A DNA stretch of 42,906 nucleotides from a virus: positions 1 through 42,906 of IMG/VR virus record IMGVR_UViG_3300036944_000392. One strand, written 5' to 3'. The translations under genes were made by a program, and so were the position numbers. The notes beneath the pieces were generated by a model. It saw nothing but the letters and a program-made list of their open reading frames with translations, had not been told where the DNA came from and ran no database searches. Numbering within the stretch: position 1 is the stretch's first letter; every line of letters starts with the position of its first letter. Shown here piece after piece: positions 2,524 through 41,723 of the stretch.

Positions 2524-4341
2524 ATGTACCTCCGCAATCCCGTAACTCCTAAAAGGCGTACCGCTCAAACGAAGATGTTCCCAGCCCCCACCGCTGGGTG
2601 GATTTCCAACCGGAACATCTCGACGCCTGAAAGCGGGGTGCAGGGCGCGGCCATCCTGGATAACTTCTTTCCGACAGCGACGGGGGCGATCCTGCGTCGG
2701 GGCAAGTCTCTGTATGTCCAGGTTGGCGAAACCACAATCACGTCCATCTTCTCTTACAATGCGGGCATCAACAAGCGTCTGTTTGCCGCCAATGCTACGA
2801 CAATCTACGATATCACCGATTCCCTAGCTCCTGTGGAGGTGGTAACGGGCAAAACCAACGGTTACTGGTCTGTGGTGCAGTTCGCCACTACAGGCGGTAT
2901 CTTCCTTATTGGCGTCAATGGCGAGGATACCGGCTTTGTGTTCGACGGCACGGATTTCTACGACAATGTAGAGGGCGGCGTGTGGGAGGTTCCATACGAT
3001 AACGAAACAGCGCCCTTTGTCGTGGGTGAAGTGGTCACAGGCGCAGTCTCGGGCGCTACAGCTACGGTCTACCGCGTAGAGGCCGCACGCCTACTGGTGA
3101 CTGACATCACGGGCGGGCCATTCCAGGATGATGAGGGTCTAACGGGGAGTCTAGGTGGTGGGGCGCAGGTTAACGGTATCGCCTTTAGCTTGATCCCTGG
3201 CGTGACATTCGACAGCGGCACGTCAACGTCTACGACTGCCGACATGTCATACGTATGGGCCTACAAAAGCCGTCTGTTCTTCCTTGAAAAGGAAACGATG
3301 AACTTTTGGTATCTGACGTCTCCAGACGCTATCGGTGGACCTGCCGACGTGTTCCCTCTGGGTGCAGATCTTGGCCGGGGCGGCTCCCTCATCTTTGGTC
3401 ATGGGTGGTCACTGGATAGTGGTGCATCGGGCGGTCTATCGGAACAGTGCATCTTCGTGTCTTCAGAGGGCGAAGTGGCCGTCTATCAGGGAAATGATCC
3501 AGCGCAGGCAGCGCAATGGTCAAAAGTTGGCGTCTACCGTATTGGAAGGCCTTTGGGGAAAGATGCTTTCATTCGTGCCGGTGGCGATATCATCATTTCT
3601 ACCTCCATTGGCAAGATACCCATTTCCCAAGCCATCCAGCGGGACTTCGCCGCATTGGCCCCTGCTGCCGTGTCCTACCCCATTGAGGAGGCGTGGCGGC
3701 AGGCCGTCGATGAGCGGGGCGCGGAGGGGTGGGTGGCCGAGATGTGGCAAGGGGGGCAGATGGTTGTTGTTGCCCCGCCTACGGCTTCAGGAACGGAGCC
3801 TGTGGTATTCGTAGCCAATGCTGGCACAGGCGCATGGGGCAGATACACAAATTGGAACATGAAGTGCGCCCATTCCGTAGAAGGCGACTTGTATTTTGGC
3901 TCCCCTAACGGTGAAGTTTACCGCGCCAACATCGGCGGCATGGACGGAGACCAGACTTACACGGGCGTTTATATGCCTTTGTTTGAGTATCTAGGCTCCC
4001 CCGCGTCAATCAAGGTTGGCGTTATAGGGCGTGCCGTGTTGCGGTCCCGTGCTGATGTCAATGAAGTCATTGCCCTTCATTCCGATTACGACATGAATAT
4101 GGAGTCGCCCCCGAATGCCGCGCCAGTCCCTGCGGGCAATACATGGGGTAGCGCCATCTGGGGCCAGGCGAAGTGGGGCGGCTCCAGCCCTGAGATCATG
4201 AACCAGGACTTCCATTCCATCGGCGGTTCCGGCTATACGCTGTCTCTGTCCCTACAGGTCACTAGCGGGGCACTCACACCTATCGATACCGAGATCATCC
4301 GCATGGAAATGGTTTACAACGTTGCTGAGATCGTCACGTGA
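2524..4341 (+). CDS. Tail hub / packaged-DNA stabilisation protein, P22 gp10-like
   Basis: A 605-residue beta-rich protein in the position of P22 gp10 (tail hub, plugging the packaged head). The sequence has many short Gly/Thr-rich strands typical of a propeller-like hub (FSYNAGINKRLFAA; GTGAWGRYTNW; FGSPNGEVYRA). The N-terminus (AGWISNRN) and FFPTATGAILRRG motifs are common in rhizobial and related podovirus hub proteins. It is longer than P22 gp10 (472 residues), apparently because of an inserted Thr/Gly-rich domain near residues 155-240. It overlaps the next gene by 4 bases. Family assignment rests on remembered pattern and gene order. Confidence 0.75.
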   Translation: MYLRNPVTPKRRTAQTKMFPAPTAGWISNRNISTPESGVQGAAILDNFFPTATGAILRRGKSLYVQVGETTITSIFSYNAGINKRLFAANATTIYDITDSLAPVEVVTGKTNGYWSVVQFATTGGIFLIGVNGEDTGFVFDGTDFYDNVEGGVWEVPYDNETAPFVVGEVVTGAVSGATATVYRVEAARLLVTDITGGPFQDDEGLTGSLGGGAQVNGIAFSLIPGVTFDSGTSTSTTADMSYVWAYKSRLFFLEKETMNFWYLTSPDAIGGPADVFPLGADLGRGGSLIFGHGWSLDSGASGGLSEQCIFVSSEGEVAVYQGNDPAQAAQWSKVGVYRIGRPLGKDAFIRAGGDIIISTSIGKIPISQAIQRDFAALAPAAVSYPIEEAWRQAVDERGAEGWVAEMWQGGQMVVVAPPTASGTEPVVFVANAGTGAWGRYTNWNMKCAHSVEGDLYFGSPNGEVYRANIGGMDGDQTYTGVYMPLFEYLGSPASIKVGVIGRAVLRSRADVNEVIALHSDYDMNMESPPNAAPVPAGNTWGSAIWGQAKWGGSSPEIMNQDFHSIGGSGYTLSLSLQVTSGALTPIDTEIIRMEMVYNVAEIVT

Positions 4342-21575: not shown

Positions 21576-21607
21576 AAGCTAATCCTCGCTCTAATCCGGA
21601 AGGTTTA

Positions 21608-21660
21608 TGCGCGGCAGGGGATGGATTAGTCCCTTTTCGTCTGGCCGGACTAGCCGCGCA
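21608..21660 (-). other. Folded leader RNA upstream of the GIY-YIG gene
   Basis: TGCGCGGC at 21608-21615 pairs with GCCGCGCA at 21653-21660, and TAGTCC at 21627-21632 pairs with GGACTA at 21647-21652, with an 11-base bulge on one side. Together that is 14 base pairs in a non-coding stretch between two leftward genes. Function is unknown; a regulatory hairpin for the endonuclease transcript is plausible. Confidence 0.45.
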
Positions 21661-33915: not shown

Positions 33916-34410
33916 ATGGAAACAAGACTTACACTCCTAGAGAAAATACCCAAGACAAGGCCAGCTAAAGCACGGTATCGGTGCGTATGTGGCGCTGAGG
34001 TTGTGGCGTATTGCTGCAACGTGTCGTCAGGTAAAACAAGGTCTTGTGGGTGCTACAGGCGCGAGAGCGCCCTAGCCAAGATGGAGAGCCATAAGCAGGC
34101 GTTCTCCGGCGGCAACGTCAAGCATGGGGAGTGGGACGCCTACACAGGCCAGAGCTATACTCTCATGCTTCAGCGGTGTTACAATCCAAAGCGTTCAAAT
34201 TACCCATATTATGGGGGCAGAGGCATCGCGGTGTGTGACAGGTGGCGCGATAGCTACCTGTCCTTTGTGCACGACATGGGAAAGCGCCCGCCAGGAATGA
34301 CTATCGAGCGCGTTGATAACGACGCCGACTATTCTCCTGATAATTGCGTGTGGGCTACACGTAAGCACCAAGCTAACAACAGAAGGCCGCGCAATTCATG
34401 TCTAAAATAA
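33916..34410 (+). CDS. HNH-family endonuclease
   Basis: A 164-residue protein of a widespread phage HNH/AP2-like homing endonuclease type. A Cys-rich N-terminus ([20 protein letters not shown]) is a zinc finger. The core ([31 protein letters not shown]) is followed by a typical HNH end ([30 protein letters not shown]). It may have a weak promoter of its own (TTACCT/TATTAC). It overlaps the terminase start by 13 bases, and its insertion explains the separation of small and large subunits. Confidence 0.8.
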
Positions 34411-35783
34411 TCCTGCCCCATAGCGGGTGGAAGCCAAGACCATACCAAATGCCGCTTTGGAGCTATCTTGAGAAGGGCGGGAAACGGGCCGTCGAGATCG
34501 CTCATAGACGGTGGGGCAAGGATGACTTGATCCTGCACCGTACAGCCATCGCGTTACATGAGAGACCAGCATCATACTGGCATATGCTCCCCCTACAGAC
34601 GCAAGCACGTAAGGCTATCTGGAGCGCGGTAAACCCGCACACTGGCAAGCGCCGCATTGACGAAGCGTTCCCCATGGAACTACGGGAGAACACGCTAGAT
34701 GATGAGATGTTTATCCGGTTCAAGAATGGGGCAACGTGGCAGGTTGTGGCCAGTGATCGATATAACAGCCTTGTTGGCGCTGGTGTCGCTGGCGTTACCT
34801 TCTCTGAGTTTGCATTGGCGAACCCTTCTGCGTGGGGCTACATCCGGCCTATGATCGAAGAGAATAACGGATGGGCGGCGTTTATCACCACGCCACGCGG
34901 GCGCAACCATGCCAAAGATCTGTATGATATGGCCGTGAAGAACCCCAAGTGGTTCGCGGAGGTGTCCAACATTCACACTACAGGCGCATTGTCTCAGGAG
35001 CAGCTAGACGAGTCCTTGAAAGAGTACATTGCGTTGTACGGCGAAGACATGGGAACCGCTCAATTCGAGCAAGAGTACCTATGCTCATTCAACGCCGCCA
35101 TCATGGGTGCGTTCTATGCCCGTGAGATGTCAAAGGTTCGCAGCGAAGGCCGCATTGATGAGACGCTAGAGGCTGTCGAAGGATGGCCTGTGCATCGAGC
35201 GTGGGATATCGGCGTGAAGGACGATACCAGCATTTGGTGGTTTCAGGTTGTCGGCACCCAGCTATTCATCCTTGATTGCTACAGCCAGTCGGGCGTCGGC
35301 GTGGATCACTATGCGGAGATCGTACACAAGAAGACAGAGGAATACGGCTGGGAGAGCGGTATCGATTACGTGCCGCACGATGCCAAGGTGAAGGAGTGGG
35401 GTTCTGGCAAGACCCGCGTTGAAACTATGATGGAGCTAGGGCTTAAGCCTGAGCTTGTGCCGATGGCTACTAAGCTTGACGGTGTAAACGCTGTACGTCG
35501 CACCATGCCTTTCTGTGTGTTCCACTCCAGGTGCGAGGCGCAAGGGTTGCCAGCCTTGGAGCAGTACCGGCGCGAATGGGATGATGACAAGAAGGCTTTT
35601 AAGGCTTCTGAGGTACACGACTGGTCATCCCACTTGGCTGACGCATTCCGTTATCTTGCGCTTACGTGGCGCACTACGGCTACGGCCTTGAAGATCCCTG
35701 ATAGGTCGGATGCTGTAAACATGACTGAGGCAGGCTACGTTGTCGCGCCGCCTTTGGAACAACAAGGGAGACGTCGGCGTTAG
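34398..35783 (+). CDS. Terminase large subunit
   Basis: A 461-residue packaging motor. The ATPase has an adenine/Q motif ([11 protein letters not shown]), Walker A HRRWGKDD at 36-43, Walker B GVTFSE at 132-137 with catalytic Glu137, and the coupling motif FITTPRG near 158. The nuclease domain has Asp in [10 protein letters not shown] (about 272), [10 protein letters not shown] (about 330) and HLADAFRY (about 425). It cuts and translocates DNA into the head. It ends in TAG. The N-terminus begins directly with the Q motif, as in P22- and T7-like terminases. Confidence 0.9.
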
Positions 35784-35824: not shown

Positions 35825-35977
35825 ATGGCCACCGATAAGAAAGAGTACCCATACGACAACGAGTTCCCGGAGAACGTGAACCCGACTGACAAGAACCGCC
35901 GCGAGTTCTCCAAGAAGCGTGAGAAAGAGGTGGAGGACGCCAAGCGTGATGCGGAAGAAGCTTCGGAAAGAGAGTGA
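35825..35977 (+). CDS. Small charged protein, 50 aa
   Basis: A 50-residue hydrophilic protein, half Glu/Asp/Lys/Arg, with PYDNEFPENVNPTDKNR and a helical tail (KKREKEVEDAKRDAEEAS). AGGAG is 6 bases before ATG 35825. No family. Its 3-prime end overlaps the -35 of the promoter for the tRNA-like RNA. Confidence 0.65.
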   Translation: MATDKKEYPYDNEFPENVNPTDKNRREFSKKREKEVEDAKRDAEEASERE

Positions 35978-36002
35978 CAGAGAGCCGAAGGTTTGATATA
36001 AG
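35974..36002 (+). promoter_or_regulatory. Promoter of the tRNA-like RNA
   Basis: -35 GTGACA (35974-35979), 17-base spacer and -10 TATAAG (35997-36002). The expected start, about 36009, almost coincides with the 5-prime end of the tRNA-like RNA at 36011, so the RNA would need little or no 5-prime trimming. Confidence 0.6.
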
Positions 36003-36010
36003 AGAGTTAG

Positions 36011-36093
36011 CGGCTGTTGGGAGAGAGGATGAATCCAACCTGACTACCAGGTATGCCTGAAAGGGCACGTACGTTCGAATCGTACACAGTCGT
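36011..36093 (+). tRNA. Class II tRNA-like RNA, anticodon position CTA
   Basis: An 83-base tRNA-like cloverleaf. The acceptor is CGGCTGT (36011-36017) with ACAGTCG (36086-36092), 7 bp with one G-U. The D-arm GGA/TCC has a GG-containing loop. The anticodon arm ACCT/AGGT (36038-36041, 36049-36052) holds a 7-base loop GACTACC with CTA at 36044-36046. The variable arm is TGCC/GGCA, and the T-arm is a perfect GTACG/CGTAC with a canonical TTCGAAT loop (36069-36085). The long variable arm makes it class II (Leu/Ser/Tyr type). CTA would read UAG, but position 33 is A (not U) and 37 is C, so decoding is doubtful. CCA is not encoded. Confidence 0.5.
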
Positions 36094-36095
36094 TT

Positions 36096-36125
36096 AGGGC
36101 CATCTTCGGGTGGCCCTTTCTTTTT
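36096..36125 (+). terminator. Terminator of the tRNA-like RNA
   Basis: A 7-bp stem AGGGCCA/TGGCCCT (36096-36102, 36111-36117), 8-base loop and a T-rich tail (TTCTTTTTG). Located 3 bases after the tRNA-like RNA. It probably also ends transcripts from the terminase operon. Confidence 0.85.
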
Positions 36126-36715: not shown

Positions 36716-36785
36716 CCATAACACACACCCCAGATTTCGGTGGGTTGGGGTAACGGCGCAAGCCCGCACGATGCCAGCCGAAACA

Positions 36786-36811
36786 CCCGCCGGGGCCATC
36801 ATCCCGGCGGG
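36786..36811 (+). other. GC-rich hairpin in the gap before the 64-aa gene
   Basis: CCCGCCGGG (36786-36794) and CCCGGCGGG (36803-36811) form a 9-bp stem with an 8-base loop. The following ATTTC is not a strong T-run, so an attenuator or RNA stability element is likelier than a full terminator. It lies 36 bases before the TTG start at 36847. Confidence 0.45.
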
Positions 36812-36846
36812 ATTTCAGTACCTAGAAGGAAGAGGAGTTACACCCC

Positions 36847-37116: not shown

Positions 37117-39498
37117 ATGGACATCCGCGACACAGAACTTGCAGACACGCTGACGGTTACGGATGAGCCAAAGAGCGCCGCCAATATCCTGGAAGCTATC
37201 GAGGACTCAGAGCGGGCGTTCCATGCGTATAACGACTATTGCAGGCGTGTGGATAATGCCCTGTCTTCCAAGGGTAATCTTGATGCCACCTCCTCCGCTA
37301 TGGGCTACACGGACCAGGAGTACGATATCTTCTGGGCGTCCATGGAGATCCTTAAGCCTGCCATCTATGCTCGCCCTCCCAAGCCTGTAGCCACTCCCCG
37401 ATTCAAGGATGGCCGCCTCATTGACAAGACGGTGGCCGAGCTTATCGAGCGCAACGTTTACAGCGAGTTCGACCGTTCCGACATAGATCAGGCTATGCTG
37501 AGTATTCGTGACGATCTGGCAACCACCAATCGCGGTGTTGCATGGGTCACGTATGAGAGCGACGGCAAGGGCGGTGGCAAGCGTGTCTGTGTCGAGCATC
37601 TGGACCGTATGGACTTCCTGCATGAGCCTGCCCGCAAGTGGTCCGAGGTTGGGTGGGTTGCCCGTCGTGCATGGATGACCCGCACCGAGATGAAGAAGCG
37701 GTTCCCCGGCAATGAGGGCTGGGAGGAGGCCAATTATGCCATTCGTCGTGAAGATCGGGATTCTGGTGGTGCTGATCTGTCTGCGAAAGCTTCCGTTTGG
37801 GAAGTTTGGAGCCGCGTCGATAACAAAGTTTACTGGGTCTCTGAAGGCGTTGCCAAGATTCTGGAGGAGAGCGAACCGTATATGAATCTGCGGGGGTTCT
37901 TCCCCTGCCCGCGCCCTGCCTATGGGACATTGGTTCGCCGCACACTCATTCCCGTGCCAGATTACCGCCGCTATGAGGGCCTTATCGAGCAGATCGATGA
38001 AGCCACCAGCAAGATCTATGATTGGCTGTATGAGGCCAAGCTTAAGGGCTTTGTGCCCGCTGGTGGGGATGTAGGGTCCGCCATCAAGACCGCCCTAGAG
38101 GCAAACGACACCACCACAATCATTCCTCTTCCAGGGGCTGCGTTTGCCGCAGGTTCTGCGTCCGGCTTTATCGCATGGATGCCCCTGGATATGATCACCG
38201 CTGCTATCCAGGGCATGCTGGAAGCCCGCCGTGAGATGATCAACAACTTCTATGAGTTGTCCGGTATCTCCGACATTATGCGTGGTGCGACGGAAGCGCA
38301 GGAAACCTATGGGGCGCAACGTCTCAAGTCTCAGTATGGCAGCATCCGCGTTCGTGAGAAGATCGATGAGATGGTGCGACTGGCAAGGGATATCGCTTAT
38401 ATCTCTGCTGAGATCATCTCCGATAACTTCGATCAGGATCTGTTGCTTGAAACGGCGCAGATGGATATTCCCTCCCGCCGCGAGGTGGAAAAGTCTATCC
38501 GTGAGCTTAAGCAGGCGTGTGAGGATGAGCTAACGGCGTTGATGGAGGGTTTGCAAGATCAGCCTCCACCGCCACCAGAGGCCCCGGAACAAGCCGCGCA
38601 GATGGAACAGCAGTTCCAGGAGGCGCAAAAGGCTATCCTTGCGAAGTATCAACCCCAGCTTGACCAGTTGGGCAAGTCCGTCGTTATCGAAGACGTGATG
38701 AAGATCCTGAAGGATGACAAGATCCGCAATCTTGTCATTGATATTGAGACGGATTCCACTGTCCTGACAGATGAGGTTGCGGAAAAGCAATCCCGCGCCG
38801 AGTTCCTGACGGCCTTCGCCAATGCTACCCAGTCTGTGCAGTCCTTGCTACAGGCGGGTGAGGCGGGAGCACAATTGGCCGGTGGGCTGCTGAAGTTCGT
38901 TCTTGCCCCATATCATGCCAATCGTGAGCTTGATTCCCTGATTGATGCCTTCATTGAAAAGGCTCCTGAGTTTGCCGCTGCGGCTGCGGGTGAAGGGGAG
39001 AATGATGGGCTTATCGAGGCGCAGAACAAGCTTGCCGAGGCCGAACAGATGAAGGCGCAGGCCACCATGGAAGGCGTCAAGGCCCGCGCTATGAAGGATC
39101 AGGCCGACATGCATGCCAAGTTGCAGCAGATGGAGGTTGACACCCAGGAGAAGGTTGCGAAGATGCAACTGGAGAACCAGAAGCTACAGCTTGCCAGCCA
39201 GAAGCAGGAACAGGAGTTCCAGGCCAAGATGGCAGATATGGACGCCAAGCAGAACCTTATGCAGGCACAGACGGCAGAGATCCTGAACAAGATTGGTTTG
39301 GACGTTCGCAAGCAGGATCTGGCAGAGTATCAGGAGGCACGTGCAGTTGAACAGACCCAAGTTGATACGGCGCTTAAGGTTACTTCAGAAGAACGCGCTA
39401 ATCGCCAGCAGGAAGTATCCGAAGTGCAGGGTGAGCGTCAGATGACGATGCAGGAGCGGGCGGCTATGCAGCAAGACCAACAGAAGGAACCTGTATAA
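37117..39498 (+). CDS. Portal protein, P22-like
   Basis: A 793-residue portal. The core (about 40-450) has the conserved phage portal pattern (DQEYDIFWASMEILKPAIYARPPKPV; DDLATTNRGVAWVTYESDG; WSEVGWVARRAWMTRTEM; YELSGISDIMRGATEAQETYGAQRLKSQ). The C-terminal ~300 residues are a long Gln/Ala/Lys/Glu coiled-coil helix, equivalent to the P22 portal barrel. P22 portal is 725 residues. It forms the dodecameric DNA entrance and starts the packaging vertex. A TATAGA box at 37080 may be a weak promoter. Confidence 0.9.
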   Translation: MDIRDTELADTLTVTDEPKSAANILEAIEDSERAFHAYNDYCRRVDNALSSKGNLDATSSAMGYTDQEYDIFWASMEILKPAIYARPPKPVATPRFKDGRLIDKTVAELIERNVYSEFDRSDIDQAMLSIRDDLATTNRGVAWVTYESDGKGGGKRVCVEHLDRMDFLHEPARKWSEVGWVARRAWMTRTEMKKRFPGNEGWEEANYAIRREDRDSGGADLSAKASVWEVWSRVDNKVYWVSEGVAKILEESEPYMNLRGFFPCPRPAYGTLVRRTLIPVPDYRRYEGLIEQIDEATSKIYDWLYEAKLKGFVPAGGDVGSAIKTALEANDTTTIIPLPGAAFAAGSASGFIAWMPLDMITAAIQGMLEARREMINNFYELSGISDIMRGATEAQETYGAQRLKSQYGSIRVREKIDEMVRLARDIAYISAEIISDNFDQDLLLETAQMDIPSRREVEKSIRELKQACEDELTALMEGLQDQPPPPPEAPEQAAQMEQQFQEAQKAILAKYQPQLDQLGKSVVIEDVMKILKDDKIRNLVIDIETDSTVLTDEVAEKQSRAEFLTAFANATQSVQSLLQAGEAGAQLAGGLLKFVLAPYHANRELDSLIDAFIEKAPEFAAAAAGEGENDGLIEAQNKLAEAEQMKAQATMEGVKARAMKDQADMHAKLQQMEVDTQEKVAKMQLENQKLQLASQKQEQEFQAKMADMDAKQNLMQAQTAEILNKIGLDVRKQDLAEYQEARAVEQTQVDTALKVTSEERANRQQEVSEVQGERQMTMQERAAMQQDQQKEPV

Positions 39499-40495: not shown

Positions 40496-40523
40496 TCACA
40501 CCTAACCTCAGATAGGTAAAACC

Positions 40524-41723
40524 ATGCCAGAAGAAATTGCAGTAGTCGAAAGAACCGTTCTTGAGCCGGGGACGGAACCTATTGAGCAGTCTACCAACGT
40601 AGAGCGGGATCTGTCGGCGCTTACTCCAGATAAGCCGCAGACGCCCGAAAAGCCCGACACCAAGACCAGCCGTGGCGACGTTGAAAAGGCGTTGGACAAG
40701 ATCCAGGCTGATGATTCCTCGAAAGAGGCCAAGGACGCCAAAGCCGAGGCCAAGCCAGACACAAAGATTACCCCGAAAGAGCAGGCCGCAAAGCCAGCCG
40801 AAAAGGTCGCGGCCCCTGCCGATGACAAAGCCGTGCAGGAGCCAAAGGGCGCTGACCGCCGTTCTGAGGGGCGCGATTACCCCGAAGCTCCTGCACGGTT
40901 TCTTCCCAAGGCGAAAGAGGTGTGGCGCAACGCCCCTCTGGTGGTGCAGCAGGAAGTTTCCCGTATCGTCCAGGAACACGATGCAGAGGTTGCCCGCTAC
41001 AAAGAGACTACGCAGGAATATGAAAGCATCAAGCACTATGCCGAGCGTGCGAAGCAGGGCGGGACGGACCTAAAGACCGCGCTGGATAACTACGTTGGCA
41101 TTGAGGACAAGCTGCGGGAAAACCCTTCCGAGGGCCTGAAGTCCATTATCAACAACATGGGCATGCACCCATCCCGTGCCATCGCCAGCATCATGCAGGC
41201 TTACAATGTCACCCCGCAGCAGCTTATGCAGCATATGCAGCAGGCCCCGCATGAGTACAGCCCTCTAGCCGCGCCAAGGCAGCAGCCACAACAGGCTCCG
41301 CAACAGCAGGCTAATCCCGAAATCCAGGAGCTTAAGCAGCAGCTCCAGCGGATGCAGGAACAGCAGACCGCAGACAACGTTATCAAGCCCTTTATTGAAG
41401 AGGGGCACGATAGATATTATGAGTTGCAAGAAGATATTGCCTTTTTCCTGCAAAGCGGTAAAATACCATCTACCTTGAGTCCTCGTGAGCGACTTGAGGC
41501 GGCATATGACATGGCTGAACGGATCAACCCGTCTTCACATTATCAACCGCCTCAGACCACGCCCGACGTAGACCCTGAGTCCCAGCATCGCCGTGCTGAA
41601 CCTGACCTCAACGGCACCAAATCCGTTAAAGGCGCTCCAAACGGGGGCATGGACTCACCGCCAAAGCGCTTCAAATCAACCCGTGATGCCGTTAAGGCTG
41701 CGATGTCAGCTAACGGCATGTAA
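40524..41723 (+). CDS. Scaffolding protein
   Basis: A 399-residue protein. The N-terminal 120 residues are acidic/Lys/Pro-rich and probably disordered (KPQTPEKPDTKTSRGD; AKAEAKPDTKITPKEQAAKP). Then a helical section with RFLPKAKEVWRNAPLVVQQEVSRIV, GLKSIINNMGMHPSRAIASIMQA and a Gln-rich coiled part, and a basic C-terminus (PPKRFKSTRDAVKAAMSANGM) that would bind coat. Composition and the position just before the major capsid gene mark it as the internal scaffold that shapes the procapsid. Confidence 0.85.
   Translation: MPEEIAVVERTVLEPGTEPIEQSTNVERDLSALTPDKPQTPEKPDTKTSRGDVEKALDKIQADDSSKEAKDAKAEAKPDTKITPKEQAAKPAEKVAAPADDKAVQEPKGADRRSEGRDYPEAPARFLPKAKEVWRNAPLVVQQEVSRIVQEHDAEVARYKETTQEYESIKHYAERAKQGGTDLKTALDNYVGIEDKLRENPSEGLKSIINNMGMHPSRAIASIMQAYNVTPQQLMQHMQQAPHEYSPLAAPRQQPQQAPQQQANPEIQELKQQLQRMQEQQTADNVIKPFIEEGHDRYYELQEDIAFFLQSGKIPSTLSPRERLEAAYDMAERINPSSHYQPPQTTPDVDPESQHRRAEPDLNGTKSVKGAPNGGMDSPPKRFKSTRDAVKAAMSANGM

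Follow-up and report, generated by a model that had tools for sequence, protein, structure and literature searches.

Does the small structured RNA encoded between the large terminase and portal genes of a 42.9-kb virus record decode UAG, or is its likeness to a tRNA put to some other use? A sequence-only reading of this record (the window: the whole stretch analysed, 42,906 nt) had described an independently transcribed class II tRNA-like RNA with CTA in the anticodon position, and had offered both a suppressor tRNA and a tRNA mimic as explanations.

Setting of the locus

About 175 loci were gathered for comparison through terminase neighbours, portal neighbours and short DNA patterns; they carry L numbers where they need to be told apart. 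Among named phages, Rhizobium phage RHph_I3_18 and Bradyrhizobium phage ppBjS10J-1 have the closest terminases; this, together with a GcrA-like protein encoded in the window, makes an alphaproteobacterial host likely. Its terminase-portal interval holds a small gene, the tRNA-like RNA and two small ORFs (Table 1). In RHph_I3_18, ppBjS10J-1 and Ruegeria phage 45A6 the terminase and portal genes abut or overlap, and ARAGORN reported no tRNA in the terminase-portal stretches examined. Among bacterial genomes, no prophage with a window-type terminase was confirmed; PADLOC, run on ten window proteins, returned no match.

The small upstream gene (35826-36000) appears frameshifted relative to L083 and L088, with the conserved C-terminal ESDxEPKV in another frame. 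A second noncoding stretch before the portal gene (36717-36815) matches L083 at 96% identity (102 nt) and L008 at 95% (83 nt), against only about 70% for the portal coding DNA; at its end is a strong hairpin resembling a terminator (CCCGCCGGG..CCCGGCGGG), and it is probably another small structured RNA (z -2.7). Elsewhere in the window, a known phage-associated RNA, int-alpA (RF02996, 38.2 bits), lies at 21595-21660 (-).

Table 1. Features of the terminase-portal region of the window
Feature	Position	Strand	Description
Large terminase	34398-35783		
Small gene upstream of the RNA	35826-35978	+	ATG at 35826, TGA near 35976
Promoter-like sequence, GTGACA-17-TATAAG	35974-36002	+	-35 GTGACA 35974-35979, 17 nt, -10 TATAAG 35997-36002
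tRNA-like RNA, class II tRNA body	36009-36094	+	direct reading, fold, covariation, descriptor
Acceptor stem, 5' strand, GCGGCTGT	36010-36017	+	8 bp; ninth pair A36009-T36094 possible
D-arm, GGA-GAGAGGATGAA-TCC	36020-36036	+	3-bp stem, 11-nt loop; A14, G15, G18, G19, A21 present
Anticodon-position arm, ACCTG-ACTAC-CAGGT	36038-36052	+	5-bp stem, 5-nt loop 36043-36047; CTA at 36044-36046
Long variable arm, TGCCT-GAAA-GGGCA	36054-36067	+	hairpin
T-arm, GTACG-TTCGAAT-CGTAC	36069-36085	+	perfect stem; 20-mer shared with L083, L021, L084
Acceptor stem, 3' strand, ACAGTCGT	36086-36093	+	no CCA encoded
Intrinsic terminator, AGGGCCATC-TTCG-GGTGGCCCT + TTCTTTTT	36096-36125	+	stem 36096-36117, UUCG loop, T-run; identical in L083
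Portal	37117-39498		

The tRNA-like body and its predicted transcription signals

The arms of the body can be read directly from the letters, and the class II fold described earlier, with its perfect TTCGAAT T-arm and long variable arm, stood up to scrutiny, shuffled sequence giving no match. T8 and G9 follow the 5' strand of the acceptor stem, C48 sits between the variable arm and the T-arm, and the acceptor-T helix amounts to 13-14 bp; CCA could be added by a host enzyme. The minimum-energy fold (-30.4 kcal/mol, z -2.9 against shuffles) contains the acceptor, anticodon-position, variable and T arms, while the 3-bp D-stem owes its support to covariation and not to folding energy.

The promoter named in the sequence-only reading does consist of the letters claimed, and its counterpart in L083, GTGACG-17-TATAAC, lies at an equal distance from the RNA; a consensus promoter scan left it unscored, below threshold, because TATAAG ends in G. 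Its -35 box overlaps the 3' end of the small upstream gene, so codon conservation also contributes to the conservation of the promoter in L083. The expected start, about 6-7 nt past TATAAG, coincides with the first (5') base of the acceptor stem, much as had been proposed, and the terminator, likewise predicted to follow the RNA directly, begins 2 nt past the body. The window and L083 have in common a block (80% over 187 columns) that opens some 35-40 nt ahead of the -10 box and closes with the terminator; this conserved promoter-to-terminator cassette argues for an independently transcribed unit.

Relatives and covariation

In the collections searched, L083 alone is a close relative. It keeps the promoter, acceptor, D-arm, T-arm and terminator of the window cassette, with a compensatory change in the D-stem (GGA/TCC to GGG/CCC) and a G-C pair in place of the outer acceptor G.U. 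The anticodon and variable arms, by contrast with these, have been rebuilt as other well-paired hairpins: the anticodon-position arm is ACCT-GACG-AGGT, a 4-bp stem with a GACG tetraloop, which leaves no room for an anticodon, and in place of the window's variable arm stands another hairpin of greater length. Scanning for exact matches to the D-arm and to the terminator turned up L083 alone.

Three more distant loci complete a set of five full bodies: L021, found through its terminase, with the same body on another acceptor and D-stem; L084, an unrelated phage chosen for the same T-arm 20-mer; and L151, chosen by its acceptor and T-arm pairing. Run over 1.62 Mb of related phage DNA, a strict descriptor of acceptor, D-arm and T-arm picked out these five and no others, with no match in three shuffles; a looser acceptor/T-arm descriptor gave six matches, against 0-1 in shuffles. 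In the trimmed five-member alignment 98.8% of cells are paired and 13 of 16 pairs have changed on both sides (none of 500 shuffles was as good, and no slide came near), a count that is partly circular because of how L084 and L151 were chosen. In those two, only the D-stem, the D-side core letters and G15-C48 are free of selection, and these agree in all five. The D-stems are GGA/TCC, GGG/CCC, GCA/TGC, GCT/GGC and CCA/TGG. Core positions 8, 13, 14, 15, 18, 19, 21, 48, 54, 55, 56 and 58 are identical in every member and 57 is always a purine, so that all 13 positions checked match in each, including G15-C48, G18, G19, T54, T55, C56 and A58. Conservation of the paired arms in relatives, which the sequence-only reading had made a test of the cloverleaf, is thus borne out for the acceptor, D and T stems.

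The L084 phage, which is AT-rich, carries two adjacent tRNA-like bodies at 3440-3685, with very long insertions in their anticodon arms. A host tRNA was considered as parent of the window RNA and rejected: the T-arm 20-mer had a single match in the bacterial genome collection, in Paenibacillus, where there is no tRNA, and this was taken as chance.

The anticodon position

The window RNA has the acceptor, D and T stems and the tertiary-core residues of a tRNA; it lacks a 5-bp anticodon stem with a 7-nt loop and U33. In the stable, minimum-energy structure the loop is the 5-nt ACTAC. Placing CTA at positions 34-36 requires a 7-nt loop, GACTACC, for which G36042-C36048 must be opened and an A.A mismatch accepted at the base of the stem; N33 is then not U and N37 not a purine. 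CTA is therefore not the natural anticodon that it had been taken for. The tRNA-gene search proposed earlier gave a mixed outcome: ARAGORN calls a tRNA, but as tRNA-Gly(ACC) with a poor stem, a spurious assignment in which the stem is mostly unpaired, and the Rfam covariance models for tRNA (RF00005) and tRNA-Sec (RF01852) did not match the RNA even at E<=10. The identity of a tRNA-Sec, considered for the 13-bp acceptor branch, was also discarded on the lack of a UCA anticodon.

None of the five full bodies has a canonical 5-bp/7-nt anticodon arm with U33. For comparison, ordinary tRNAs in the same set of loci, read by eye, have normal arms (loops CTTGTAA in the L088 tRNA-Thr and CTCATAA in the L016 tRNA-Met).

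Similar RNAs beside terminase and portal genes

The noncoding RNAs of related phages are diverse, and several of them contain tRNA-like modules. Most lie at the terminase-portal junction: in the window, L083, L021, L018, L086, L087, L088, L098, L151, L106, L128 and Microcystis phage Mwe-JY13, portal and terminase homology having been checked. In L004, L005, L013 and L144 they lie just before the terminase; in both positions the RNAs of this phage group are bounded by terminators. Modules without a canonical anticodon arm occur beside terminase or portal in L098 (where a small gene is followed by a tRNA-like RNA whose loop has 9 nt, then by a terminator and the portal), L018 (a tRNA-like body whose anticodon stem is damaged and which scores 44 bits with Rfam tRNA, plus a second module), L013 (a tetraloop in the anticodon position), L144, and L088 (a tRNA-Ser-like body plus a second module with a T-arm-like hairpin). 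GCCCAATGGGCAAAGAGTTTG is common to L021, L018, L005 and L086-L088, most of which also have the closing stem TTTGGAATG...CATTCCAAA around very different contents.

Several further observations concern these loci. The tRNA-Ser-like body of L088 (5703-5620, -) has C33 instead of U33 and a weak Rfam tRNA-Sec score (32.4 bits, cut-off 47). Longer noncoding units are present in L086 (2300-3100, -), L087 (700-1700, -), L088 (5250-6030, -), L018 (3690-4190) and L043 (8200-8500); they also carry GCCCAATGGGCAAAGAGTTTG and closing-stem modules, a conserved block, CAAGTCCCGAAAGGGCAGCTAGGGTTGATC, without an Rfam match is found in those of L086, L087, L088 and L043, and a promoter-like GTGGTAGATAATACGCA in L018 and L005, with a variant in L088. 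These units may represent an undescribed large phage RNA family. In Mwe-JY13 (L176 1605-2330 = 40504-41229) no genes are annotated over about 0.8 kb of the terminase-portal interval; CCGAAAGGCAACGAAAT-like motifs recur in this sequence, and its 3' end is tRNA-like, GGGAAGC...GGGTTCGAATCC...GCTTCCC, and by eye looks like a T-arm plus acceptor. A different noncoding motif, TCCAATGyGGAG..CGATCAGCCCCTTGTAmGGGTA, lies between a small gene and the portal in L099 (7487-7830), L101 (2353-2700) and L088 (4900-4955).

Comparison with known systems

With class II tRNAs (tRNA-Ser/Leu/Tyr) the window RNA shares T8, a 3-bp D-stem, the D-loop GAGxGGxxxAx, G15-C48, the long variable arm and the TTCGAAT T-arm; it differs in its 8-9-bp acceptor and in lacking a canonical anticodon arm, an encoded CCA and an Rfam tRNA match. 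Allo-tRNAs, some of them in phages, have 8/4 or 9/3 acceptor branches, 12 bp in all, and keep their anticodon loops; an unusually long acceptor stem is shared, but the window RNA has 13-14 bp and no anticodon. The bacterial Y RNA YrlA is likewise a standalone bacterial noncoding RNA with a tRNA-like module; the window RNA differs in being closed by the acceptor stem itself. Identity as a Y RNA was rejected, there being no Ro/Rsr (TROVE) gene in the window or the records of the five relatives, and no Rfam match.

Also comparable are mascRNA and menRNA, tRNA-like RNAs with an elbow and no decoding anticodon loop (PMC11693755). These are human, are made by RNase P from a long RNA and have a reduced D-arm, whereas the window RNA has its own promoter-like sequence and a full class II core. 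GOLLD and ROOL, large structured phage RNAs linked to tRNAs (PMC12286853), invite comparison with the longer RNAs of L018, L086-L088 and L176; the window RNA measures about 85-115 nt, and their Rfam models had no match in the loci scanned.

Discussion

The explanation favoured here, and judged reasonably probable, is that a promoter and terminator of its own frame a gene whose noncoding product mimics tRNA, with a class II body and no usable anticodon, most likely acting as a decoy or docking RNA. Transcription would begin from the RNA's own promoter, at or within 1-2 bases of the 5' end of the acceptor stem, and end at the terminator directly behind that stem. The transcript would fold into a class II tRNA body with the elbow (the D-loop/T-loop contact), the 13-14 bp acceptor-T helix and the long variable arm intact, and, having no usable anticodon, would not decode. 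At the level of sequence the RNA has the elbow and acceptor-T helix of a tRNA without a decoding loop, as a mimic should, and the retention of similar RNAs at one place in related phages suggests that tRNA imitation serves a purpose other than translation. Predicted to be present in infected cells and to fold as an L, the RNA would act by being taken for a tRNA, most likely occupying or recruiting host factors that read the elbow, acceptor or long variable arm instead of the anticodon, either as a decoy or as the module by which a ribonucleoprotein docks. Candidate partners include RNase P, RNase Z or the CCA-adding enzyme, T-loop modifying enzymes, SerRS-type synthetases, and a tRNA-directed defence nuclease or toxin; the elbow is recognised by RNase P, RNase Z, the ribosome, LeuRS, TruB and Dus enzymes (review PMC4810234). 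By analogy, elbow mimicry without an anticodon has an established precedent in mascRNA and menRNA, where it suffices to recruit RNase P/Z (PMC11693755). A literature search, not exhaustive, found no paper on phage-encoded non-decoding tRNA mimics, nor such a use of mimicry by stand-alone DNA-phage RNAs.

Could the RNA nevertheless decode? A suppressor, or a decoding tRNA of another kind, that had an unusual anticodon loop, carried Ser or Leu and read UAG in phage mRNAs would draw on the facts that CTA fits positions 34-36 if the loop is opened, that class II bodies are charged by SerRS and LeuRS largely independently of the anticodon, and that TAG closes the window's large terminase gene, where readthrough could add 31 aa. 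The amber-suppressor reading fails on loop geometry (a stable 5-nt loop, no U33, no purine 37) and on the 4-nt loop of L083; the other three full-body relatives also lack a canonical arm, ARAGORN reads ACC from a poor stem, the terminase stop in L083 is TAA instead of TAG, and the 13-14 bp acceptor-T helix exceeds the 12 bp that EF-Tu normally accepts. Decoding is thus very improbable, and of the two explanations first offered it is the mimic that fits a covarying tRNA body with an intact tertiary core and a remodelled decoding part. A decaying tRNA pseudogene, acquired from a host or a different phage and retained fortuitously, is unlikely, if less so: phages often carry tRNA genes, and it is the decoding part that is broken, with anticodon and variable arms evolving fast. 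Decay should, however, reach all arms, and the acceptor, D and T arms are intact with compensatory changes and a core preserved in all five; moreover, the limits of the cassette are those of promoter and terminator, the anticodon arms of both the window and L083 copies are rebuilt and fully paired, and relatives at the same locus share the pattern.

Two other roles were considered. As in MALAT1/mascRNA, RNase P/Z or the terminator might define and stabilise an RNA end, making the element one of processing or end protection. The tRNA-like module is followed by a terminator in the window, L083 and L098, and in L021, L018 and L088 it is embedded in a longer noncoding region that a long stem closes; but the promoter is so close that the window RNA would be nearly leaderless, leaving no upstream RNA in need of a 3' end unless the true precursor is a transcript reading through from the terminase operon, and this role seems rather unlikely. 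A part of the packaging machinery, a portal- or terminase-associated RNA like the pRNA of phi29, is suggested by the run of loci with noncoding RNAs at the terminase-portal junction, synteny beside the portal gene being the sole feature of such an RNA seen in these sequences. The junction is without a gap in many near relatives that share the terminase, the RNAs are upstream of the terminase in L005, L004, L013 and L144, and they look too diverse for one fixed motor part, which makes this role as improbable as decoding.

The tRNA-mimic reading may extend beyond the window. Tentatively, this phage group may keep fast-evolving structured RNAs at the terminase-portal junction that share a non-decoding tRNA body, a deliberate mimicry that would serve as a decoy for tRNA-directed host factors or defence, or as the RNA component of a virion or packaging complex. 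More such RNAs may be hidden because annotation tools mislabel them (tRNA-Gly here) or miss them (Rfam). Should the RNA's partner prove to be RNase P, a modification enzyme, a synthetase or a defence protein that targets tRNA, nature would have supplied a compact inhibitor or bait. The tRNA genes of phages are usually regarded as aids to translation; if the mimic reading is true, phages would also exploit the shape of tRNA as such.
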